Source: Comamonadaceae bacterium
GTDB lineage: Bacteria > Pseudomonadota > Gammaproteobacteria > Burkholderiales > Burkholderiaceae_C
DNA length: 64,000 nt
Assembly (NCBI GenBank): GCA_027488255.1
Contig: JAIYBZ010000009.1
Coordinates: 62,001 to 126,000, forward strand
Reading direction: 5' to 3'
The notes beneath the pieces were generated by a model. It ran no database searches, was not told the DNA's origin, and saw only the letters and a list, made by a program, of their open reading frames with translations. The position numbers and the translations under genes were made by a program. This document shows, in pieces, positions 20,969-42,282 of this stretch; within the stretch, counting starts at the first letter, position 1, and every line of letters starts with the position of its first letter.

Positions 20969-20982
20969 TTGATAAAAATCAA
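20969..20982. promoter_or_regulatory. FNR-type box TTGAT-AAAA-ATCAA
   Basis: Perfect match to TTGAT-N4-ATCAA, in the divergent region between cytochrome c4 and moxR; possible -10 CATAAT at 21008-21013. Confidence 0.7.
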
Positions 20983-26398: not shown

Positions 26399-28132
26399 TC
26401 AGGCTGCGTAGCCCTTGTTGGGCAATGCGCCCATGATTTTTGGTGCATTGAGCTGACGTGGCTTGATGCGCCCACCCTGCGCCTTGAGCCAAGTCTCCAC
26501 CACATCCCAAACTTGTTTGTTGCCCTGATTGCGAGCTTCTTCGGCCACAGGGGCCCAACCGGCCACTTTGTACTTTTTGCCGGCCTCGATCAACTGCCCT
26601 TTGAGGCGCAAATCGCCAATGCGGTTACCCATCGTGCCAACGGGGTTGCAACTGTATGTCAGCCCTCCCACTCGCACCATGTCGCCGCCCTGTTGGTAAT
26701 AGGGATCAGGGTTGAAGAGGTTGTCCGCCACATCTTCCAGCACGGTCTTGATGGTCTCACCCGTCATCTCGGTGACGGTGGCGTAGGAGTAGGTGGTGGC
26801 CGTCATGTCCAACAACCATTCACGGGTAATGGCCTGACCGGGCAACAATGTGGTGCCCCAGCGGAAACCGGGGGAGAAGGCAATTTCTGCACTTTGCACA
26901 TCCAGCAAAGCATCCACCAACAATTGGTCGCCTGTGCCGTTGAAGTTGCCACGGCGGTAGAGCAGACCGTCTGTCACGGCCAGCTTTTCAGACAACTTGG
27001 ATTCGTAAGGCGCGCGGATCTTGCTGATCAAAGCGTCCATCTCTTTGTCGGCGGGCAACATATTGGAAAACACAGGCAACAGCTTGTAGCGGAAGTCAGC
27101 GACTTTTTTGTCTTTGATAGAAAAGTCCAACACGCCCAAAAATTTGCCGTTCGAGCCGGCATTGGTCACGAGCGTCTTGCCCCCTTTGTTGGACACCACC
27201 GTGGCCACGGGCATCCCGTCGTGCGTGTGGCCGCCCATGATGGCGTCAATCCCACTCACGCGGCTGGCCATTTTCAAGTCCACATCCATGCCGTTGTGGC
27301 TGATGACGACCACCACTTGGGCGCCCTTGGCACGGGCTTCGTCGACCATCTTTTGCATGTTTTCATCTTGGATGCCAAACGCCCAATCGGCCACCATGTA
27401 ACGCGGGTTGGCAATTGGGGTATAGGGGAAAGCTTGGCCAATGATGGCGCATGGCACACCGTTGATTTCACGAATGACATAAGGCTTGAAGACAGGGTCC
27501 CCAAAGTCATTGGTCTTGATGTTCTGCGCGACAAAGTCAACTTTGCCGGCAAAGTCTTTCTCTACGATTTCTTTCACGCGTTCCATGCCCAGTGTGAATT
27601 CCCAATGGCCGGTCATCACGTCAACGCCCAGCAATTTGCAGGCATCCACCATGTCTTGGCCGTTGGTCCACAAGCTGGTGCCAGAGCCTTGCCAAGTGTC
27701 ACCGCCATCGAGCAACAAGGCACCAGGTCGGCTGGCCTTCATGCGCTTGACCAAGGTTGCCAAGTGGGCAAATCCACCCACCTTGCCATAACGCTTGGCT
27801 GCTTTCTCATAGTCCAAATAAGTCAAGGCATGGGCTTCGGCAGTCCCCGGACGAATCTTGGCCGCTTGCAGCAAATACTCACCGACCAAATGTGGCAGAT
27901 TGCCCTGCATCGAACCAATGCCCATGTTGATGCTGGGCTCACGGAAATAAATCGGCTTGAGCTGAGCGTGGCAATCGGTCATGTGCAAGAAAGACACATT
28001 GCCAAACTTGGGAATGTCATACAGCCCGTTGGCCGCCGTGGCCGCACTGGCTTCAGCAAACGTGCCCATGCTCAAGCCTGCCATCGTGCCGGCACCCATC
28101 ACCTGAATAAATTCGCGTTTGGAGAGATTCAT
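26399..28132 (-). CDS. soxB: Thiosulfohydrolase SoxB
   Basis: FLHMTDCHAQLKPIYFREPS, DGGDTWQGSGTSLWTNGQD, GGHTHDGMP 5'-nucleotidase/metallophosphatase motifs; sox context. Confidence 0.96.
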   Translation of the reverse strand: MNLSKREFIQVMGAGTMAGLSMGTFAEASAATAANGLYDIPKFGNVSFLHMTDCHAQLKPIYFREPSINMGIGSMQGNLPHLVGEYLLQAAKIRPGTAEAHALTYLDYEKAAKRYGKVGGFAHLATLVKRMKASRPGALLLDGGDTWQGSGTSLWTNGQDMVDACKLLGVDVMTGHWEFTLGMERVKEIVEKDFAGKVDFVAQNIKTNDFGDPVFKPYVIREINGVPCAIIGQAFPYTPIANPRYMVADWAFGIQDENMQKMVDEARAKGAQVVVVISHNGMDVDLKMASRVSGIDAIMGGHTHDGMPVATVVSNKGGKTLVTNAGSNGKFLGVLDFSIKDKKVADFRYKLLPVFSNMLPADKEMDALISKIRAPYESKLSEKLAVTDGLLYRRGNFNGTGDQLLVDALLDVQSAEIAFSPGFRWGTTLLPGQAITREWLLDMTATTYSYATVTEMTGETIKTVLEDVADNLFNPDPYYQQGGDMVRVGGLTYSCNPVGTMGNRIGDLRLKGQLIEAGKKYKVAGWAPVAEEARNQGNKQVWDVVETWLKAQGGRIKPRQLNAPKIMGALPNKGYAA

Positions 28133-28160
28133 ATTTGCAATCACTGATATATGAGGAACT

Positions 28161-28185
28161 AAAAAACCCGGACCAGCCGGGTTTT
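28161..28185 (-). terminator. Intrinsic terminator-like hairpin between soxX and soxB
   Basis: Minus strand AAAACCCGG-CTGGT-CCGGGTTTTTT. Confidence 0.75.
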
Positions 28186-28193
28186 GGAGTGGG

Positions 28194-28850
28194 TTACTGG
28201 TTAACGGGTGACTTGGGGTCGAGCAACAAACCCACAATGTGGCGCACCTGGGTTTCGTTCAAGATGCCCATGTGACCCGCCCGTGGCATGTTGGAACAAG
28301 CGTTGTAGGCTTTGGAGTTCCAGATCTTGCCCCAGGTGTATTCAACGATGGGTTTGCTGGCAGGATCGCTCGGGTTAGAGACCCCACGCAGCTTGCCGTA
28401 GTTGTACAGGCTGGGGCCAATCGTGCCGTAAGAAATTTCTTTCTTGTCCATCTGATGGCAGTTGTAGCAATTGCCACCATTGACCGTTTTGGCATCGTCC
28501 GTCCATGTCAATCCGCGGCCGCTTTGAGCGATTCTTTCGCCTTCACGCCAGTCGCCAATAAATTGACCATCTGAAGGCCATTTGATGGTTTTGAAATTGG
28601 CAGCCTCCAAAGCTTTGGCCGTTTTTTCATCAAGTGGTTTGCCCGCGACATCGGCTTCGCTGCAAGCCTTATTGGTTTCATCTGTGGCCGTGATGCGTTC
28701 GACTTTCACACCATTTTCGTCGCGGAAAGAGGCTTTGACGATTTGGTCTGTCAAGGCATTCAGCTCCGCCACAGAAGGACCTGTGGCACAACCCACAGCC
28801 ACCAAAGCAGCCGTGAGGCTGGCCAATACGAGAGAGGTTTTTTTGTTCAT
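28194..28850 (-). CDS. soxX: SoxX, c-type cytochrome subunit
   Basis: Single heme GNCYNCHQMDKKEISYGTIGPSL, lipobox-like VAVGC, between soxA and soxB. Confidence 0.92.
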   Translation of the reverse strand: MNKKTSLVLASLTAALVAVGCATGPSVAELNALTDQIVKASFRDENGVKVERITATDETNKACSEADVAGKPLDEKTAKALEAANFKTIKWPSDGQFIGDWREGERIAQSGRGLTWTDDAKTVNGGNCYNCHQMDKKEISYGTIGPSLYNYGKLRGVSNPSDPASKPIVEYTWGKIWNSKAYNACSNMPRAGHMGILNETQVRHIVGLLLDPKSPVNQ

Positions 28851-28869
28851 ATGAGGTCTCCTGGTCAGA

Positions 28870-29673
28870 TCAACGCTTGATGGCCGGTGCAACTGAGGCG
28901 GCCCCTTTGGCATTCACCCCCAAATAGGTGGCCAAAGCAACGGTGGCGTCACTGGCAAAGCCCGGGTAGGGAAAGCGTTGCTGGCGGTAGCAATCGTTCA
29001 AACGCAATTGCATGCTCCACATCTGACCGTTGGAGACACGGTAAGCCGGCCAAGCGGCAAAACCAACCCCGTCGCCCGGGTTCTTGGTGAGAATCGGCAA
29101 GTCTTGCAAACGAATGCGTTTGCCCTCTTCACCGTGGCAAGAAGCGCAAGAGAAATCGTGCGGGCCGCCGCGCTGGAAAAACAGGCGTTTGCCTACTTCG
29201 TAAAACGACTTTTCTTGAGCATGCGCTTGCGACAGATTGAAGCGCAGCCCTTTGGACTCGGCGGCAATCCATGTGGCCAAGGCCGTCACGTTGGCCATTT
29301 CGCCGCGACCAAATGCAGTCTTGGAAATTTCAGCGGCATTGAAACCTTGCAGAGTTTCCATACAAGTGACCAAGCGAGACTCAAGATCTTGCATGCGCTG
29401 GGTGTCTGCAAAGTAGCGCGGCAACTCGACAAAAGCCCCTTTCACGACACCCGGACCTTTGCCCAAATCGCATTTTTCAAGGGATGCGTTTTTGGGACCA
29501 CGCGCTTTTTTCCAGAGGTCTTCGCCTTTGGCCTCAAACAGGTCTGCGGGGTTGCCATCTTGCAACATGGCGCGGTATTCGTCGATGCCCTGACTGGCCG
29601 TTTTTTGGGCCATCACGGGGGCGACGGCCAAAGCCATTGCTGCTGCAATGGAAAGGGTTGCTGCTTTTTTCAT
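28870..29673 (-). CDS. soxA: SoxA, L-cysteine S-thiosulfotransferase cytochrome (one CxxCH)
   Basis: CDLGKGPGVVKGAFVELPRYFADT, CMETLQGF, CASCHGEEGKRIRLQDLPIL, LNDCYRQQRFPYPGF. Confidence 0.95.
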   Translation of the reverse strand: MKKAATLSIAAAMALAVAPVMAQKTASQGIDEYRAMLQDGNPADLFEAKGEDLWKKARGPKNASLEKCDLGKGPGVVKGAFVELPRYFADTQRMQDLESRLVTCMETLQGFNAAEISKTAFGRGEMANVTALATWIAAESKGLRFNLSQAHAQEKSFYEVGKRLFFQRGGPHDFSCASCHGEEGKRIRLQDLPILTKNPGDGVGFAAWPAYRVSNGQMWSMQLRLNDCYRQQRFPYPGFASDATVALATYLGVNAKGAASVAPAIKR

Positions 29674-29701
29674 TGTCACCTCTGTAGATTTTTTTAATGC
29701 A

Positions 29702-29733
29702 AAAAAAGGGTGAAGTTTGGCTCCACCCTTTTT
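29702..29733 (-). terminator. Intrinsic terminator-like hairpin between soxZ and soxA
   Basis: Minus strand AAAAAGGGTGG...CACCCTTTTTTT; GGGTG/CACCC stem flanked by A/T tracts. Confidence 0.7.
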
Positions 29734-29748
29734 AGTCACAAAGCCCGA

Positions 29749-30060
29749 TCAAGACACCGTGGCTTCGTCGGTACGGGTATCGCCCTTGTTGTCTTTCCAG
29801 ATCACTGTGATCTTGTCACCGGCTTTGGCGCCTTTTACCGAGAATTGCAAGAAAGGGTTTTTCGACACAGCGGGGCCCCATTCAGCGGCCAGCACTTGTT
29901 TGCCATTGAGGTTGGCGGTCACTTCTTGGATAAACCAGGCGGGCACGATTTTGCCCGCAGCATCACGGCGCTGACCGGATTCCATCTCGTGGCTCATGAG
30001 CACGCGAACAGTGGCTTTGTCGCCCGAAGCTTGGGCACGAATGCGCATTGGATCTGCCAT
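29749..30060 (-). CDS. soxZ: SoxZ, thiosulfate oxidation carrier complex
   Basis: MADPMRIRAQASGDKATVRVLMSHEMESGQRRDAAGKIVPAWFIQEV. Confidence 0.95.
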   Translation of the reverse strand: MADPMRIRAQASGDKATVRVLMSHEMESGQRRDAAGKIVPAWFIQEVTANLNGKQVLAAEWGPAVSKNPFLQFSVKGAKAGDKITVIWKDNKGDTRTDEATVS

Positions 30061-30121
30061 TTTTCTCTCCTAAATCTTTCAATCAATCAATGTGGGGTCA
30101 CGGGTACTGGATGTGGACGGA

Positions 30122-30577
30122 TCAACCGCCGCAACCGCCCAAAGTGACCTTGACTTCTTTTTTGGACCACAGGGCTTTACCGTCGTTCATGATCGCGATG
30201 GCATAAACATCTGAGGACTGGCCCATCTTGGCGCGTGTCGTGAAGTTGGCGTCCACTGCATCAGAAACGTGGAACATGGCCACCAAGGCGGCGGGGTTCT
30301 TTTCGACCAAGATCAACAATTGCTTGGCACCAGCCAATGTGGTGCTGGCACCCAATGGCACCACTGCCCCGTTTTCGGCGATGTCCGGCCCGGTGATGGT
30401 CACATCTTTGCTTTCGGCCAAGCTGGTTGCACCAGCAGCCTTAGCGGCGTCTTGCACCGACTTGGCATCGAATGCGTTTTTGTTGAAAGCGGCTTGCGCG
30501 AATTGCGGAAAGCCAGCAGCGGCCAAGAGGCCAGCCACAACAGCGGTTTGCTTGAGTGTCTCGCGACGGTTTTGCAT
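30122..30577 (-). CDS. soxY: SoxY, thiosulfate carrier protein
   Basis: Twin-arginine-like N-terminus, conserved C-terminal VTLGGCGG swinging arm. Confidence 0.96.
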   Translation of the reverse strand: MQNRRETLKQTAVVAGLLAAAGFPQFAQAAFNKNAFDAKSVQDAAKAAGATSLAESKDVTITGPDIAENGAVVPLGASTTLAGAKQLLILVEKNPAALVAMFHVSDAVDANFTTRAKMGQSSDVYAIAIMNDGKALWSKKEVKVTLGGCGG

Positions 30578-30646
30578 CGGTTATCTCCTTGATGAATGAT
30601 GGATGCTATAGAAACAGGTTCAGCAGTTCAACGGGGAAAGCCCGAA

Positions 30647-31723
30647 TTACTTGCTGGCCCCCTTGGAAATCCATTCGCCAATTTTCTTGGCATCGGCGTC
30701 GGGCAATGATTGTGGCGGCATCGGGATTTGGCCCCAAACACCGACGCCACCGCCCTTGATTTTGCTCACCAAATAGTCAGTCTTGCCGCTGTGCTTCTTG
30801 GCAATTTCGTTGAAGCCAGGTCCAACAATCTTTTTATCAACCCCATGGCAAGCCGTACAGCTGTATTTGTTCAACAGTGCAATGGCGGCTTTGGCTTCGG
30901 CATTTTCAGCCTTGGCTGGCGCCGCGGCAGCAGGCGCCGCCGTCATGGGCATGCCCGCCTTCGGCTCGGGCTTGGTGGTGTCGGCACCCACTTGCTGGCC
31001 CACCATGCGGTTTTGTTCGGCCAAATTACCGTGGGCGTTGCGCGCGAAATCAGGCAAGAAAGAGGCCACTTTGGCTTCTGGTTTGCAATCTTTCATGCAC
31101 AGTGTGTTGTTGGTATCGGGCTTTTTGACCCCACCAAACTCGTTGCCTGGCCACATGGCATGTTGCGTGGTCATGCCATTGCGGTTGGGCATACGGGCCT
31201 GCACTTCAGCGATATTTTTGTCGGACAACACATAGTTGTCTGGAACCACATTGGCCAGGTTCAACAGAAATGCGGTCACCGCATACACCTCTTCAGTGGT
31301 CAATGTCTTGGGCGCTGTCCAAGGCATGGCACGGTTGATGTAGTCCCACAAAGTCGACACTGTTGCCACCTTCATGATGGTGGTACGGCCAGGGTAGTCT
31401 GAGCGGTCCAAATTGGCGACACGGCCCTTTTTGATGTCTTCCGCGGTGGTGCCACCGATCAGGGGGCTGAACACTTCACCCGACTCGCCAAACACACCGT
31501 GGCAATGGGCACATTTGCCTTCCCAAACATCTTGACCTTTGGCCACAGAACCCGAGCCAGCAGGCAGGCCCTTGAAGTCTGGACGAACATCAATGTCCCA
31601 CTTGGCCACCTCTTTTGCGGTTGCCGCACGACCGATACCTGGGAAATTGGCGCTTTGCGCCGAGGCCCAACCGGCCAAGGCCAACAACGCGCCCGTCACA
31701 ACCGCATTACGAAACCTGGACAT
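30647..31723 (-). CDS. soxD: SoxD, diheme cytochrome c of sulfane dehydrogenase
   Basis: Two CxxCH (CAHCHGVFGESG, CTACHGVDKK), adjacent to soxC. Confidence 0.93.
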   Translation of the reverse strand: MSRFRNAVVTGALLALAGWASAQSANFPGIGRAATAKEVAKWDIDVRPDFKGLPAGSGSVAKGQDVWEGKCAHCHGVFGESGEVFSPLIGGTTAEDIKKGRVANLDRSDYPGRTTIMKVATVSTLWDYINRAMPWTAPKTLTTEEVYAVTAFLLNLANVVPDNYVLSDKNIAEVQARMPNRNGMTTQHAMWPGNEFGGVKKPDTNNTLCMKDCKPEAKVASFLPDFARNAHGNLAEQNRMVGQQVGADTTKPEPKAGMPMTAAPAAAAPAKAENAEAKAAIALLNKYSCTACHGVDKKIVGPGFNEIAKKHSGKTDYLVSKIKGGGVGVWGQIPMPPQSLPDADAKKIGEWISKGASK

Positions 31724-33074
31724 TTTTCACCTCACCGTTTTCCTGCACCAACCACGACTGGATGGCGTTGTTGTGATAGATCGAGCGCGTGCCACGCACG
31801 CCACGCAATTGCTGGTAGGTCGGTTGTACATGGCCCGTGTCGTCCTGGGCACGACTTTGAATGATGGCGGGCTTGCCATCCCAGACCCAATCCAAGTTAA
31901 AGCGGGTCAAGGCTTTGGACAAAACGGGCGTCTCCAGACGCGCTTGGCGCCAGTTGCGACCACCGTCTGTGGACACGTCCACGCGCTTGATCTTGCCCTT
32001 GCCAGACCAAGCCAAGCCCGTGATGTTGTAGAACCCTTTGTCCAGCAAGACCTGTCCACCAGAGGGTGTGGTGACCACGCTCTTGACTTCTTGCAGATTG
32101 GTGTATTGCCGGTGCAAACCACCGGGTTGCAAATCGATGTAATGAATGGCCTCGTCTTTGGTGGCATAAGGCTTGTCGCCCACTTCGACTCGGCGCAAAT
32201 ATTTCACCCAACTCACGCCTTGCACACCCGGCACCACCAAGCGCAGTGGGTAACCATTTTCTGGACGCAGCATTTCACCGTTTTGGCCGTAGGCCACGAT
32301 CACTTCACCCGAAGTGATGAGACTCATGGGAATGGTGCGCGTCATCGATGAACCATCACCGCCTTCGGCCAGCACAAACTTACCGTTTTTCAAGTCAGCG
32401 CCCGCCAACTCCAACAAAGTGATCAAAGGCACGCCTGTGAATTCGCTGCAGGACAACATGCCGTGGGTGTATTGCACCGTGGGCACGGCCACATTACCCC
32501 AGTCAACGGCTGTGTTGGCACCGCACTCGATGAAGTGGAAGCGCGAGACGGAAGGCAAACGCATGATCTCGTCCATGGTGAAGACCATGTTCTTTTTGAC
32601 CATGCCGTTGATCATGAAGCGGTGCTTAGACGGATCGATGTCCCACCAACCTTGGTGGTGCCGCTCAAAGTGCAAACCGCTGGGCGTGACGATGCCAAAC
32701 AAAGACTGAAGTGGCGCAAACGACACCGAAGCTTGGGTGGTCTGGGTCAAACCAGGGCTTTGACGTCGTTGCAAATTAGATTCGTACTTGGAAGGTTTGC
32801 CATAGCCTTCAACGGCCACACCTTGCCCAAGGCCCGTGGCATGCTCCGGCAGATTCAAAATATTGGGGTCGCCACCTTCAGTGGGTACAGGATTGCCCTG
32901 AGCCATCGCCATGGGTGCTGCAGCTCCAGCGGCGGCAGCGGCAAAGGCGTTGCGAATGAAGTCGCGACGGCCTTTTTTACCTTCTGCGAAGACTTCTTTG
33001 ATGCCACTTTGCGTCAAGAAATTCTCGGGTGCTTTTTTCACCCTTCCTGAATTCATGCTGTCTTGTTCTTTCAC
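31707..33074 (-). CDS. soxC: SoxC, molybdopterin sulfane dehydrogenase
   Basis: Tat-like GRRDFIRNAF, FHFIECGANTAVDW sulfite-oxidase-family core; precedes soxD. Confidence 0.95.
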   Translation of the reverse strand: MKEQDSMNSGRVKKAPENFLTQSGIKEVFAEGKKGRRDFIRNAFAAAAAGAAAPMAMAQGNPVPTEGGDPNILNLPEHATGLGQGVAVEGYGKPSKYESNLQRRQSPGLTQTTQASVSFAPLQSLFGIVTPSGLHFERHHQGWWDIDPSKHRFMINGMVKKNMVFTMDEIMRLPSVSRFHFIECGANTAVDWGNVAVPTVQYTHGMLSCSEFTGVPLITLLELAGADLKNGKFVLAEGGDGSSMTRTIPMSLITSGEVIVAYGQNGEMLRPENGYPLRLVVPGVQGVSWVKYLRRVEVGDKPYATKDEAIHYIDLQPGGLHRQYTNLQEVKSVVTTPSGGQVLLDKGFYNITGLAWSGKGKIKRVDVSTDGGRNWRQARLETPVLSKALTRFNLDWVWDGKPAIIQSRAQDDTGHVQPTYQQLRGVRGTRSIYHNNAIQSWLVQENGEVKNVQVS

Positions 33075-36116: not shown

Positions 36117-36130
36117 TTGATCTGCATCAA
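36117..36130. promoter_or_regulatory. FNR-type box TTGAT-CTGC-ATCAA
   Basis: Perfect TTGAT-N4-ATCAA; candidate -10 TAGAAT at 36152-36157, within 1 bp of the position expected for a class II site. Confidence 0.75.
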
Positions 36131-36167
36131 GGCGAAAGCTGGACGCATTTTTAGAATTCTCTGCAAT

Positions 36168-36187
36168 CCCCCGTACCGGGGGTTTTT
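36168..36187 (+). terminator. Intrinsic terminator-like hairpin upstream of rhodanese gene
   Basis: CCCCCG-TAC-CGGGGG-TTTTT, 12 bp before ATG at 36199. Confidence 0.75.
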
Positions 36188-36198
36188 GCGAGAAATTC

Positions 36199-36777
36199 AT
36201 GAAAAAAATCTTTGCCGGTCTGCTGAGTTTGAGCTTGTCGAGTCTGGCCTTTGGACAAGCCGCCAGCTTGGCGGTGGGCACGCCATTGAACATCATTGAC
36301 AGCCAAAAATCGGTGACTGTGAACACGGCCAAGGGACCGATCACGATCACCCGCACCATGACGGCTTGTGCCAAAAACGGCGGCAACTTACAGCCTCTGA
36401 TTCCTGTGCCCGGCGTTCATCCGGTTGGTGAGATCGAAATCCTTGACGCACTGAGTGATCGCAACGCCATCGTGCTAGATATGCGCGACACCAACGACCG
36501 AGTAAAAGGCACCATCCCAGGCTCGGTGGGCATTCCGTACACCGAAGTGGCCTCGCGCTTGAATGAGCTGGGTTGCAAAAAGACAGGAAATCAATGGAAC
36601 TGCGATTCGGCCAAAAAGGTTTATGCCTTTTGCAACGGCCCCGTTTGCCCGCAAAGCCCGATGGCGATTCGAGCCATGACCCGCGACGGTTTTCCAGCAG
36701 ACAAGATTTATTACTACCGCGGCGGCATGCTGGACTGGGATGCCTTGGGGCTGACCAGCGTCAAAGACGAGTTTTGA
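36199..36777 (+). CDS. Periplasmic rhodanese-domain protein
   Basis: Signal peptide MKKIFAGLLSLSLSSLAFGQA; VLDMRDTNDRVKGTIPGSVGIPYTEV; active-site-like CNGPVCPQS. Confidence 0.85.
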   Translation: MKKIFAGLLSLSLSSLAFGQAASLAVGTPLNIIDSQKSVTVNTAKGPITITRTMTACAKNGGNLQPLIPVPGVHPVGEIEILDALSDRNAIVLDMRDTNDRVKGTIPGSVGIPYTEVASRLNELGCKKTGNQWNCDSAKKVYAFCNGPVCPQSPMAIRAMTRDGFPADKIYYYRGGMLDWDALGLTSVKDEF

Positions 36778-36799
36778 GGGTCCAGATCAGCGACAAGCC

Positions 36800-37501
36800 T
36801 CAGGGCAAAAGCAAGGCCTCATTGGTGATTTCATAGCGCCTGCCTTGTTTGTCGCAAGGCTTGAGGGCCCCCTCGCGAACCAAGCCACTGATCTCGCGGC
36901 TCACGGTCTCGAGCTTGATGTCCAGCATGGCCCCCATGTCGTCACGCGCAAAAAATGAAGTGAACTGAGGTTGCTCAGCGTCCCGCATTTTCAGGGCCAA
37001 TGCCGCCACCCGTTGTCGGGCAGAGCCAAAGTTCAAGTCCGCCAGCCAATCGTCTGCGTCCTTCAAGGCTTGCTGCCACTTTTTCATCAGGCGTTTGTGC
37101 AAACGCGGGGAGTGAGACGACAAGTGATGCAGCACCGACAAGGGAATGCGGCAAACCTGCGAGTCGACCAAGGCAATGGCCTCGGTGTCGTAACGGGCAT
37201 TGGCCAAAGCCTCCAGGCCTGCCACATCACCGGGGCGCAACACCCGCACAATGCGCTCACGACCATCGGCCGTGGCCCGCACCAACTTGATCATGCCCTT
37301 ACGCAAAGTAAAGACGCCCAATGCCGTCTCGCCCTCGGTATAAAGGGGAGCATCGGCAGAAAAAACCATGTCATCAATGGGCGTGTGGATTTCGCCAAAA
37401 TCTTGCTCGTTGAGATCGGCAAAAAGCACCATGTCTCGCACACCACAATTGCGGCAGTCTGAAGTGCCCTTCCAAGCGGATTCAATCTTGATAGGAATCA
37501 T
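36800..37501 (-). CDS. Crp/Fnr-family regulator, FNR-like but lacking one N-terminal Cys
   Basis: DCRNCGVRDMVLFADL N-terminus, SQVCRIPLSVL, recognition helix ETVSREI. Confidence 0.87.
   Translation of the reverse strand: MIPIKIESAWKGTSDCRNCGVRDMVLFADLNEQDFGEIHTPIDDMVFSADAPLYTEGETALGVFTLRKGMIKLVRATADGRERIVRVLRPGDVAGLEALANARYDTEAIALVDSQVCRIPLSVLHHLSSHSPRLHKRLMKKWQQALKDADDWLADLNFGSARQRVAALALKMRDAEQPQFTSFFARDDMGAMLDIKLETVSREISGLVREGALKPCDKQGRRYEITNEALLLP
37488..37501. promoter_or_regulatory. FNR-like box TTGAT-AGGA-ATCAT overlapping the start codon of the Crp/Fnr gene
   Basis: 9 of 10 consensus positions match TTGAT-N4-ATCAA. Confidence 0.45.
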
Positions 37502-37551
37502 GTCTTAAATTAGCATGCACGTGAAATTCAAAGCCCTCGCGAAGAAGACTC

Positions 37552-38097
37552 TTAAAGTGCTTTTCGGCCTTGGGCGATTCGGTCTTCTAGGTACGGGCCA
37601 TAAAAATCGGGCTGATAAGCCCCCTCCATGCGCTCAGCCACTTCTTTGCCCCCCGGACCAAAAAACAGCAAGGTGGGGGTGATCGATACTTTCCAAAGGC
37701 GTGTCAGCTGGTCGTGCGTCGTCAGCTTGCCTGCAAAGTCCAAAACGGGTTGGTTCTGGCGCATATCGACCTGAACAATGGCCGTTCCTGCTTTGTGCAG
37801 GGGAGACAAATGACTTTGCCGGGCTTGGCGGCAAAACACACAGCCCTCCAGACTGACCATGACGATCAGCGGCTGCTTGGATTTGAGGGCGCGGGCCAGT
37901 TCATCGGGCAGCGACTGCGCCAACGGCAAGGTGGCAGCCCCCGACTGCGCCCACACAGGCAGGCCAGCCAATGACGCGCCAGCCAGCATGAGCCAATCGC
38001 GTCGGCGCCAAGCTGCAAGGGAAAAGTCAGTCGGACGAAAAACCATGAATGGAGAACAGTGGACAATAGCGGGTTTTGTGTCGGCGGGATGAGCCAT
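37552..38097 (-). CDS. SoxW-like periplasmic thioredoxin
   Basis: Twin-Arg-like N-terminus, EGCVFCRQARQSHLSPL CxxC motif, cis-Pro region SITPTLLFFGPGGKEVAERMEG; actual start may be 38046. Confidence 0.8.
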   Translation of the reverse strand: MAHPADTKPAIVHCSPFMVFRPTDFSLAAWRRRDWLMLAGASLAGLPVWAQSGAATLPLAQSLPDELARALKSKQPLIVMVSLEGCVFCRQARQSHLSPLHKAGTAIVQVDMRQNQPVLDFAGKLTTHDQLTRLWKVSITPTLLFFGPGGKEVAERMEGAYQPDFYGPYLEDRIAQGRKAL

Positions 38098-38148
38098 CTC
38101 GACTGCCGCTTTTGAATATAAGAAACCAATGAATTATTGGAGAAATCC

Positions 38149-39213
38149 ATGAATCTCGCAAGCTTGCTCGAAACTTGGGGTGACTCAAATGTACTGCTCA
38201 TGGCAGGCGCATTGGTCGGTTTCATCTTTGGATTTGCCGCACAACGCACCCGGTTTTGTGCCCGTGCCGCCGTGATTGAATGCTGTGAAGGCCAAGCTGG
38301 AGACCGTTTCAGTGTCTGGTGGTTGGCCTTTGCTGCTTGTTTGCTGGGCGTGCAAGTCTTGGTTTTTGCCGGCTGGCTTAAACCAGCAGATGCCCGCTAC
38401 ATTGCACCCATGGGCAGCATTTCAGGTGCCTTGCTGGGGGGCTTGTTTTTTGGTGCGGGGATGATCCTGACACGGGGTTGCGCCAGCCGGCTGCTGATCT
38501 TGTCGGCCAACGGCAATTTGCGCGCTTTGCTTTCGGGCTTGGTATTTGCGGTCACGGTACAAGCCAGCATTGCGGGATGGCTGGCCCCCATTCGACAAGG
38601 CATCGCCTCTTGGTGGACCGTGGACGGAGGTCCGTCACGTGACTTGCTGCAAATTTCAGGCATTGGCCCAACCGGCGGACTGCTCTTGGCCTTGCTGGCG
38701 ATGGTCACCGCGTTTTATTTTTTCTTCAAAACCCACCCACGCCGATGGACACTGGCGTTGGGCGCCTTGGTGGCCGGTTTGAGCATCGCTTTGGGATGGG
38801 GCCTCACACAAGTCATTGCTGCACAGTCATTTGAAGCCGTCCAAATCCAAAGTTTGAGTTTCAGCAGTGGCTCGGCCGAAATGCTCATGCGCGCCCTGTC
38901 CAGCAGCACGTCGCCGAGTTTGGGGTTTGACGCTGGTTTGTTGCCAGCAACGTTCTTGGGCTCATTGCTCGGTGCCTTGGTGGGTGGCGACTTCAAGTTT
39001 GAGGGCTTCAAAACCGAAAACAAATTGGGGCACTATTTAGTAGGCGCCATCCTCATGGGCTTTGGCGCCGTTTTGGCAGGCGGTTGCACCGTGGGTGCAG
39101 GCATGACCGGGGGTTCTCTGTTTTCTTTGACCGCCTGGCTCACCTTGATCGCCATCTGGTTGGGGGCCGGCCTGGCTTGGCGCATCAACCGACGCATGGG
39201 CTGGCCTATCTGA
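38149..39213 (+). CDS. YeeE/YedE family sulfur compound transporter (SoxT/TsuA-like)
   Basis: FGFAAQRTRFCARAAVIECCEG, ILTRGCASRLL, GGCTVGAGMTGG conserved cysteines. Confidence 0.9.
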   Translation: MNLASLLETWGDSNVLLMAGALVGFIFGFAAQRTRFCARAAVIECCEGQAGDRFSVWWLAFAACLLGVQVLVFAGWLKPADARYIAPMGSISGALLGGLFFGAGMILTRGCASRLLILSANGNLRALLSGLVFAVTVQASIAGWLAPIRQGIASWWTVDGGPSRDLLQISGIGPTGGLLLALLAMVTAFYFFFKTHPRRWTLALGALVAGLSIALGWGLTQVIAAQSFEAVQIQSLSFSSGSAEMLMRALSSSTSPSLGFDAGLLPATFLGSLLGALVGGDFKFEGFKTENKLGHYLVGAILMGFGAVLAGGCTVGAGMTGGSLFSLTAWLTLIAIWLGAGLAWRINRRMGWPI

Positions 39214-39225
39214 AGCTTGAATCCC

Positions 39226-39239
39226 TTGATGCGCATCAA
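39226..39239. promoter_or_regulatory. FNR-type box TTGAT-GCGC-ATCAA in convergent intergenic spacer
   Basis: Perfect 14-bp palindrome, 13 bp after the YeeE stop. Confidence 0.6.
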
Positions 39240-39263
39240 TGGCGACAGAGGGGGCAACATTTG

Positions 39264-39293
39264 CATTCATATCAGTCACTACTGATATGAATG
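39264..39293. repeat. Perfect 13-bp inverted repeat with 4-nt loop
   Basis: CATTCATATCAGT-CACT-ACTGATATGAATG. Confidence 0.95.
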
Positions 39294-39356
39294 AAGCAGC
39301 CTATGGACAAGGCGCAAGTTTCCGATACTTATGGATGGGGAACAGTCTTGACGGTC

Positions 39357-39394
39357 GAAGGGGGAGTATCTTCCTCAAATACTCCACCCCCTTC
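39357..39394. repeat. Imperfect hairpin
   Basis: GAAGGGGGAGTAT-CTTCCTCAA-ATACT-CCA-CCCCCTTC, 8+5 bp stem with 3-nt bulge. Confidence 0.8.
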
Positions 39395-39538
39395 ACTCTG
39401 ACAAAAAACCAACACCAAAGACAATTTTTAAACACGGGTCTCAATAGCTTTATAAAACTGAGAGACCCCAAAATGCGAAAAAAAACTGTCGAATAAACGC
39501 CGCTAGTCCCTCGCTCGAGGCGTTTGGTGTGTGTCCAA

Positions 39539-40813
39539 TCAAGCCAACGTGTCAGCCCAAATGTTTTGTGCCCAAGACCAGGCGTAAACACCTTCAAGTT
39601 CATTGGCACTACTGGACACACCGCCTGACCCTGGAACGGTCAGCATCGTTTTCTTTTCAGCGTCGTAGCGGTGCACGCTGGCGACATGCACGACATCTTT
39701 GCTGCTGACATAGCTGTAGCAAGTGTTGTTGTAAATGGGCATGGGGTTAACTTCTTTGCCCATCAACAACGCCACCACTGCTGCTGCACAGGTCTTTCCG
39801 TGTTGGTTGGCCATGTGACCTGACTTGGGCATGCCCGGTGCGATTTGGATGGAGTCGCCCAGTACGTGAACGTTTTTGGCCGCCTTCGACTCAAAAGTCA
39901 GGAAGTCCACTTCGCACCAACGCTTGTTGGCAGTGGCCAAACCAGCATTGACGGCAATGTCGCCCGCTCGCATGTTGGGAATCACATTGAGCACGCTGGC
40001 CTTGATGTCGTCATTGAACTCGAACTTCAAGGTGTTGGTGGCGGCATCAACGTCAATCACATTGTGTTTGCCGCGGTATTCGATCATGCCTTTGTAACGC
40101 TCAGCCCATGCTTTTTTGAACAAGGGGCCTTTGGAGGTGACATCTTCGTTGGCGTCCAAGATCAACACTTTGCTCTTGGGTTTGGCTTTGGTGAAGTAAT
40201 CGGCCACTTGGCATGCACGCTCATAGGGCCCGGGAGGGCAACGATAAGGGGCCAAGGGAATCGACATGGCAAACACACCGCCATCAGGCATTGCCTCGAG
40301 TTGTTTGCGGAGGGTGGTGGTTTGCTCGCCGGCTTTCCAGGCGTGCATGACCTTTTCTTTGGCACCAGCCTTATTCATGCCTGGCAACGACTCCCACATG
40401 AAGTCAACACCCGGCGAAACAATCAAACGGTCATACGACAACTCGGCTCCGCCGGCCAGTTTCACGATGCGCTTGTCCGCATCGATGGTATTCACACGGT
40501 CTTTGATGACTTTGACGCCATGGCGTTTGGTCAAGTTGTCATAAGGGGTGGTTATTTCCGTGATGGTTCTGCTGCCTCCGATAACCAGGTTGGACATAGG
40601 GCAAGAAATGAAAGCATCATTGGGCTCAACCAAAGTAACCTGAATTTTGTGCTCAGACCACATGCGCAGGTATTTGGCGGCCGTGGCGCCAGAATATCCA
40701 CCGCCAATGACCACCACTTTGGGACCACTGGCGCCACCTGTTGTGGCACAACCCGAAACCAAGCCCATGGCACCCAAAGCGGAGCCGGTCTGCAAAAATT
40801 GACGACGTTGCAT
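39539..40813 (-). CDS. soxF: SoxF / FccB-type FAD sulfide dehydrogenase flavoprotein
   Basis: RRQFLQTGSALGAMGLVSGC N-terminus, KVVVIGGGYSGATAAKYLRMW, SCPMSNLVIGG, adjacent cytochrome c gene. Confidence 0.92.
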   Translation of the reverse strand: MQRRQFLQTGSALGAMGLVSGCATTGGASGPKVVVIGGGYSGATAAKYLRMWSEHKIQVTLVEPNDAFISCPMSNLVIGGSRTITEITTPYDNLTKRHGVKVIKDRVNTIDADKRIVKLAGGAELSYDRLIVSPGVDFMWESLPGMNKAGAKEKVMHAWKAGEQTTTLRKQLEAMPDGGVFAMSIPLAPYRCPPGPYERACQVADYFTKAKPKSKVLILDANEDVTSKGPLFKKAWAERYKGMIEYRGKHNVIDVDAATNTLKFEFNDDIKASVLNVIPNMRAGDIAVNAGLATANKRWCEVDFLTFESKAAKNVHVLGDSIQIAPGMPKSGHMANQHGKTCAAAVVALLMGKEVNPMPIYNNTCYSYVSSKDVVHVASVHRYDAEKKTMLTVPGSGGVSSSANELEGVYAWSWAQNIWADTLA

Positions 40814-41674: not shown

Positions 41675-42004
41675 TCAGTCGGAGTCGCTGGCAATTTGCA
41701 CACACACGGCACGGCAAAGTGTGACCACACGGTCATTCACGATGCGGTAATAAATTTGTACCCCTTCGCGGCGCTTGCCCAAGACCCCAGCCTGGTACAG
41801 GGTGTTCAGGTGCTGAGACATATTGGGTTGGGTGGTGTCGATTTCGGCCAACAACTCCCCGACATTTTTCTCACCGTTGCACAGCGCGCTGATGATGCGC
41901 AGGCGCATAGGCGCTGACATGACACGAAACACCTCGGCGGCTTTTTCAAAGACTTCTTCGGACTCGGTCAAGACACTGTCGTCTACAGGTACGGTTTTGC
42001 GCAT
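41675..42004 (-). CDS. Second ArsR-family HTH regulator, paralog of 33097-33402
   Basis: QPNMSQHLNTLYQAGVLGKRREGVQIYYRI; ALCNGEKNV and CRAVC cysteines conserved. Confidence 0.9.
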   Translation of the reverse strand: MRKTVPVDDSVLTESEEVFEKAAEVFRVMSAPMRLRIISALCNGEKNVGELLAEIDTTQPNMSQHLNTLYQAGVLGKRREGVQIYYRIVNDRVVTLCRAVCVQIASDSD

Positions 42005-42282
42005 GGTGCACTTTTTATAAATGATGACGCCGCACAATTGTGCTGCAAAAAATAGGGCAATTTTTTCGCTGGAACACTGAGGAAAACAAGAAAAAGGCTT
42101 GCCCCCTGTGTCACGGCCACGTTGGCGGAGAAATGAAAGCATTGTGGCCAAAATAGGCCCAAATTCAAACCATCAAGTGGTTCTAAGCTTATGCCGTCGC
42201 TCTATAAGCCTGCCTCTTTCCCTAGGTAGCAGGCGCATGATGAACTGATTTTTGGCATGCTCGTCTTGGCTAATATGTGCGC

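Follow-up and report, generated by a model that had tools for sequence, protein, structure and literature searches.

The sulfur locus and its FNR-type boxes

The window analyzed here, a 64 kb stretch (G000:C23:62001-126000) of a 2.6 Mb assembly, comes from a Limnohabitans genome with a sox locus, and it encodes a local Crp/Fnr-type regulator, P0001, whose named relatives are likewise from Limnohabitans (Comamonadaceae). The original prediction joined four FNR-type boxes in this window into a local autoregulated circuit, in which P0001 would control itself, the surrounding sulfur genes and a MoxR/VWA module. Each of the four boxes is present in the sequence. Their conservation in relatives indicates that this striking cluster of motifs is a mixture: it includes a genuine promoter site upstream of a rhodanese gene (rhd), a relic left behind by the deletion of a transporter gene (yeeE2), and what is most likely a coding coincidence over the start codon of P0001. 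The central part of the locus comprises the following features:

36117..36130, + strand: FNR-type box TTGATCTGCATCAA of the rhd promoter, an exact match
36152..36157, + strand: -10 element TAGAAT of the rhd promoter, placed by alignment
36168..36187, + strand: terminator-like hairpin CCCCCGTACCGGGGG followed by T5, just past the predicted start of the rhd transcript (fold of -10.9 kcal/mol)
36199..36777, + strand: rhd, rhodanese-domain protein with an apparent signal peptide (PF00581)
36800..37501, - strand: P0001, the local Crp/Fnr-type regulator (PF00027 and PF13545)
37488..37501, no strand assigned: apparent FNR box at the P0001 start codon, most likely coincidental; coding strand ATGATTCCTATCAA, read as M-I-P-I-K
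37552..38097, - strand: trx, thioredoxin-like protein gene (PF13098)
38137..39213, + strand: yeeE1, YeeE/YedE-type sulfur transporter (PF04143)
39226..39239, + strand: FNR-type box TTGATGCGCATCAA in the promoter of the deleted yeeE2, matched by position in relatives with yeeE2
39539..40813, - strand: fccB, flavocytochrome c sulfide dehydrogenase flavoprotein (PF21706 and PF09242)

The trx gene and P0001 share one orientation, with trx 50 bp upstream, and this order is maintained in relatives.

Frequency and clustering of the boxes

The window contains three exact matches to TTGAT-N4-ATCAA, whereas dinucleotide shuffles give an expectation of 0.04 and none of them reached three. With one mismatch allowed there are five against 2.1 expected, and the one-mismatch box at 37488 therefore weighs little alone. 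Pattern searches over the whole assembly recovered 11 exact sites and a single match to the reversed control pattern. Six of the 11 are intragenic and five intergenic, namely the ccoN promoter, C20:32574, and the three in the window. The intergenic box on the other contig (G000:C20:32574-32587) is close to a YggT-like gene and a gene for an MFS transporter.

The local clustering on which the original prediction leaned is weak evidence: in simulated random placement, two of 11 sites fall within 3.1 kb of each other in 12% of the cases, and two of five in 2.4%. This unremarkable clustering, along with the intragenic position of more than half of the matches, is what could be said for all the boxes being chance occurrences. 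As clustering does not discriminate, each site was judged by its conservation. By this measure the boxes at rhd, at yeeE2 and upstream of moxR are retained in relatives, which, with the 11 to one ratio over the reversed control, makes chance highly improbable as a general account; the conservation contradicts it for 36117, 39226 and 20969, while it is still the best explanation for 37488, where the motif follows the coding sequence.

The rhd promoter

The box upstream of rhd is the best conserved 14-mer of its region, with nine of the 10 half-site columns invariant across nine genomes, and it reads TTGATYTGNATCAA or TTGACATGCATCAA in all nine Limnohabitans in which rhd adjoins the regulator gene. 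Its center lies 31.0 bp from that of a TAGAAT-type -10 element in every one of them (9/9). A box near -41, at 31 bp from the -10 element, is the geometry of class II FNR promoters, and the rhd promoter shows precisely this arrangement, with the fixed -10 distance and the box about 41 bp before the predicted start. On this comparative sequence evidence the box at 36117 is a genuine promoter element, and we propose that the promoter is a class II one, which would be switched on at low oxygen. Among congeners further removed, most rhd genes have an intact or slightly degenerate box at 67-75 bp before the gene; three of 10 rhd upstream regions from these congeners have no match at up to two mismatches.

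The hairpin and T-run of the rhd leader are found in most relatives (L042-L054), several of which have a different stem sequence; it may be a 5' hairpin of the transcript, an attenuator, or the terminator of the upstream gene. The distant rhd promoters (L133-L141) also carry a conserved palindrome, GGGTTAACCC or a close variant thereof, upstream of the FNR box. At one further locus (L142, in G036) an inverted repeat of the type otherwise seen at yeeE2, ATATCAGTACATACTGATGT, is located upstream of rhd, and no FNR box was found there.

A ghost promoter left by the deletion of yeeE2

In this strain the box at 39226 lies between two convergent genes, a position that is explained by comparison with relatives having a yeeE1-fccB gap of about 1.9 kb, where it precedes a second gene for a YeeE-type transporter, yeeE2. 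Relatives lacking yeeE2 have no box at the corresponding position between yeeE1 and fccB. Remains of the promoter and of the 5' end of yeeE2 can be discerned downstream of the box:

39261..39266, + strand: decayed -10 element TTGCAT, by alignment to TACCAT, TACATT, TATATT or TAGGAT in relatives
39264..39293, no strand assigned: perfect 13-bp inverted repeat CATTCATATCAGT-N4-ACTGATATGAATG, a putative ArsR-type operator
39303..39401, + strand: truncated 5' remnant of yeeE2 (MDKAQVSDTYGWGTVLTVEGGVS...), in an open frame of 32 codons

The remnant extends over about 22 codons and matches the N-terminus of YeeE2 at 12 of 23 residues (MDKAQVSDTYGWGTVLTVEGG versus MSMAQWLETYGQGTVLAAGGG); of the 76,338 windows compared across the 64 kb, this one scores highest. 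No yeeE2 orthologue was found elsewhere in the genome. A dihaem cytochrome c gene, which is 3' of yeeE2 in relatives, is likewise gone from the locus. The box itself holds its position, as variants of TTGAY-N4-RTCAA, in three Limnohabitans clades and recurs beyond this genus in several genera of Comamonadaceae. We conclude from these alignments that 39226 is a genuine but orphaned site, a ghost promoter left by the deletion of yeeE2; its placement in an active local circuit had overlooked the missing gene. The more general claim of the original prediction, that FNR-type control is linked to sulfur genes, appears well founded, given the conservation of the rhd and yeeE2 boxes in Limnohabitans and of the latter across Comamonadaceae genera. 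A small RNA under Fnr control, which the hairpins at 39226 had suggested, was considered and rejected as first choice: in alignments the segment corresponds to the yeeE2 leader and initial codons, its -10 element has decayed, and a U-tract is missing. Rfam offered nothing credible.

The inverted repeat overlaps the predicted start site of yeeE2 and its core has no other exact copy in the genome. An inverted repeat is conserved at this place before yeeE2 in relatives, albeit with an altered sequence in one clade. Its position, together with the neighboring genes for BigR/SoxR-like proteins, leads us to infer that it is the operator of a sulfur-responsive ArsR-type repressor. The genes in question and the sox cluster are arranged as follows:

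26399..33074, - strand: sox cluster, with soxC, soxY, soxA and soxB identified (NCBIfam equivalogs SoxC, SoxY, SoxA and SoxB above cut-off); other sox genes are likely to be present in this segment
33097..33402, - strand: SoxR/BigR-like ArsR repressor upstream of soxC (PF01022; top specific NCBIfam model BigR, under cut-off)
41675..42151, - strand: second ArsR-type regulator, BigR-like

Both ArsR proteins of the window score under the cut-off of the BigR equivalog. A three-mismatch copy of the repeat core, ATATTTGCAATCACTGATAT at 28131-28150, adjoins the soxB start and is one of only three such matches in the genome. As for FNR-type control of the sox genes proper, soxC was examined as a target and set aside, with no conserved box in the family sample and merely scattered cases in Limnohabitans.

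The boxes at the P0001 start codon and upstream of moxR

The autoregulated circuit of the original prediction drew on the two remaining boxes, viz., the one-mismatch box over the start of P0001 and an exact box upstream of moxR:

20969..20982, no strand assigned: FNR-type box TTGATAAAAATCAA, flanked by moxR (start 21053, + strand) and a dihaem cytochrome c gene in divergent orientation (start 20946, - strand)

On its coding strand the first of these reads ATG ATT CCT ATC AA, one mismatch away from the palindrome. Orthologues that begin with M-I-x-I-K and use ATC for the second isoleucine show the box, which is lost where residue 5 is Q, H or R; there is no conservation beyond the coding constraint, the motif being seen only with M(or V)-I-P-I-K starts. 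A TTG start, which would perfect the palindrome, is used by no orthologue. The motif is fixed by the first codons, and we regard it as most likely coincidental, even though ATC is used by every MIPIK orthologue (for the most part close relatives). The moxR box is of a different nature: of the 29 Limnohabitans promoters read, 28 have an exact copy at -83 to -85 of moxR and the remaining one has a single mismatch. Six of the exact copies are in genomes without P0001 and two in genomes with mere remnants of it, and the box therefore cannot depend on P0001. Neither arm of the proposed circuit, autoregulation or the coupling of the local regulator to the MoxR/VWA module, is supported by these observations, and we consider the circuit as a whole to be very unlikely.

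Which regulator reads the sulfur-gene boxes?

The genome encodes two candidate readers. The first is a canonical Fnr (G000:C19:360784-361407), encoded beside ccoNOQP, which passes the NCBIfam Fnr cut-off (237.4 against 228 bits) and has four cysteines, in the pattern C-SN-C-NLREL-C plus VC. The ccoN promoter of the same genome carries an FNR box, and the ccoN boxes of 29 genomes span the same TTGAY-N4-RTCAA range as the yeeE2 boxes. The second is P0001, which falls far short of that cut-off (76.6 against 228 bits). Across 76 aligned sequences (44 rows from Limnohabitans plus 32 rows of another set, the majority of which represent other genera) the cysteines C16 and C19 of an N-terminal CxxC and the central C117 are invariant, and the third N-terminal cysteine of the canonical quartet is replaced by V, A or G. 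The AlphaFold model of P0001 has low confidence in its N-terminal half (mean pLDDT 54.8) and is too poor for judging cysteine geometry. The recognition helix of P0001, ETVSRE, displays the E-x-x-S-R pattern; the ETVSREI helix, which had been taken to match the boxes to P0001, is indeed present, but the canonical Fnr has ETVSRTF in its place, and the helix is hence not specific to the local protein. Three congeners that retain trx, yeeE1 and fccB (L085, L086 and L087, in G065, G033 and G003) have a decayed or truncated copy of P0001, which points to repeated loss.

Two congeners, G170 and G273, have very similar loci, of which the former lacks exactly the P0001 gene. G170 has nonetheless kept the yeeE2 box, TTGACATACATCAA against TTGATATGTATCAA in G273, wherein the half-sites still conform to TTGAY/RTCAA and the spacer has changed. 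Because G170, which lacks P0001 alone, keeps this box, the canonical Fnr is the likelier reader. The yeeE2 box also occurs without P0001 in G093, G225, G105, G235 and G212, and, conversely, P0001 is found at some loci that lack both sulfur genes and boxes. Two further lines of comparison did not separate the regulators: in other genomes of the family the presence of P0001 did not significantly predict the yeeE2 box, which was seen in 11 of the 15 that have P0001 and in six of the 12 that lack it (p=0.26, kinship uncorrected), and the sequence of the boxes was discarded as a discriminator, as the ccoN boxes vary alike.

Several observations weigh on the other side and would equally fit P0001 as the reader. 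The rhd gene is found in 19 of 90 congeners, and all 19 have P0001 (Fisher p=4 × 10–7, kinship uncorrected); P0001 and yeeE2 co-occur in the family (15/24 versus 12/175, kinship uncorrected); P0001 is often found among sox genes, and many genera show it in genetic linkage with sox, trx, yeeE and fcc genes; and in G054, a 99% complete genome without P0001, yeeE2 and its inverted repeat are kept while the FNR box is lost. With the FNR-like ETVSR helix, the three invariant cysteines, and the precedent of Fnr paralogues with common promoters in Herbaspirillum (PMC5934665), these observations could be accommodated by P0001 being a diverged, dedicated FNR of the sulfur locus, which senses through three cysteines and activates rhd and yeeE2 alone or with the canonical Fnr. 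Given that the box persists in the six genomes without P0001, that P0001 also resides at loci free of boxes, and that the form of the boxes is indistinct from that at ccoN, we regard this as conceivable but rather improbable. A variant, to which we assign still lower odds and which we regard as unlikely, holds that P0001 represents a distinct FNR subfamily responding to redox state or persulfide rather than plainly to oxygen through its three cysteines, with the sulfur-gene boxes shared with the canonical Fnr and an ArsR-type sulfur repressor completing a two-input promoter.

On the whole, the assignment of the boxes to P0001 in the original prediction fares poorly in the light of G170, of the ccoN boxes and of the missing cysteine. 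The account that we favor as reasonably probable, with the reader leaning to the canonical Fnr, combines two genuine FNR-family sites, one of them orphaned, with a coincidental box at the start codon of P0001.

A model for the control of rhd and yeeE2

We propose that the sites at rhd and yeeE2 are read most likely by the canonical [4Fe-4S] Fnr encoded beside ccoNOQP. The box at 39226 would be what is left of an arrangement like that of rhd, at the now deleted yeeE2. An ArsR-type sulfur-responsive repressor probably acts at the inverted repeat over the yeeE2 start, and with such a repressor in place expression of yeeE2 would require low oxygen and reduced sulfur together. P0001 may share or modulate these sites but seems dispensable for their maintenance.

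Under this model, accessory genes for sulfur oxidation would belong to a probable oxygen-responsive regulon in a genus that is abundant in fresh water; the literature that we searched, which was not exhaustive, yielded no account of these sulfur genes being under FNR control in this group. The natural deletion that sets G170 apart from G273, along with the ghost promoter, makes a division of labor between two FNR-type proteins testable, and the three-cysteine Crp/Fnr subfamily poses a moderately interesting question of its own.

Comparison with known systems

The arrangement recalls the FNR/ANR regulons, i.e., those of Escherichia coli Fnr and Pseudomonas Anr with class II promoters such as that of ccoNOQP, in the box about 41 bp before the start and 31 bp from the -10 element, and in the canonical Fnr and boxed ccoN promoter of this genome. 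It differs from them in its targets, which are sulfur genes, namely those for a rhodanese and a YeeE-type transporter, in a sox locus. Crp/Fnr regulators of the FixK2/DNR type act at TTGAY-N4-RTCAA-type sites through an FNR-type recognition helix, as seen here; what sets P0001 apart from these is its N-terminal CxxC and central cysteine, which align to the cluster ligands of FNR. In the betaproteobacterium Herbaspirillum seropedicae several FNR-family proteins have promoters in common (PMC5934665), but P0001 differs from those Fnr paralogues in being one cysteine short and under the Fnr cut-off. Finally, although the operator proposed here is putative and both local proteins are under the BigR cut-off, the presence of ArsR genes in a sox locus and of an inverted repeat over a sulfur-gene promoter resembles the organization of the ArsR repressors BigR, SqrR and SoxR (PMC5823870, PMC10451225, PMC12423496).

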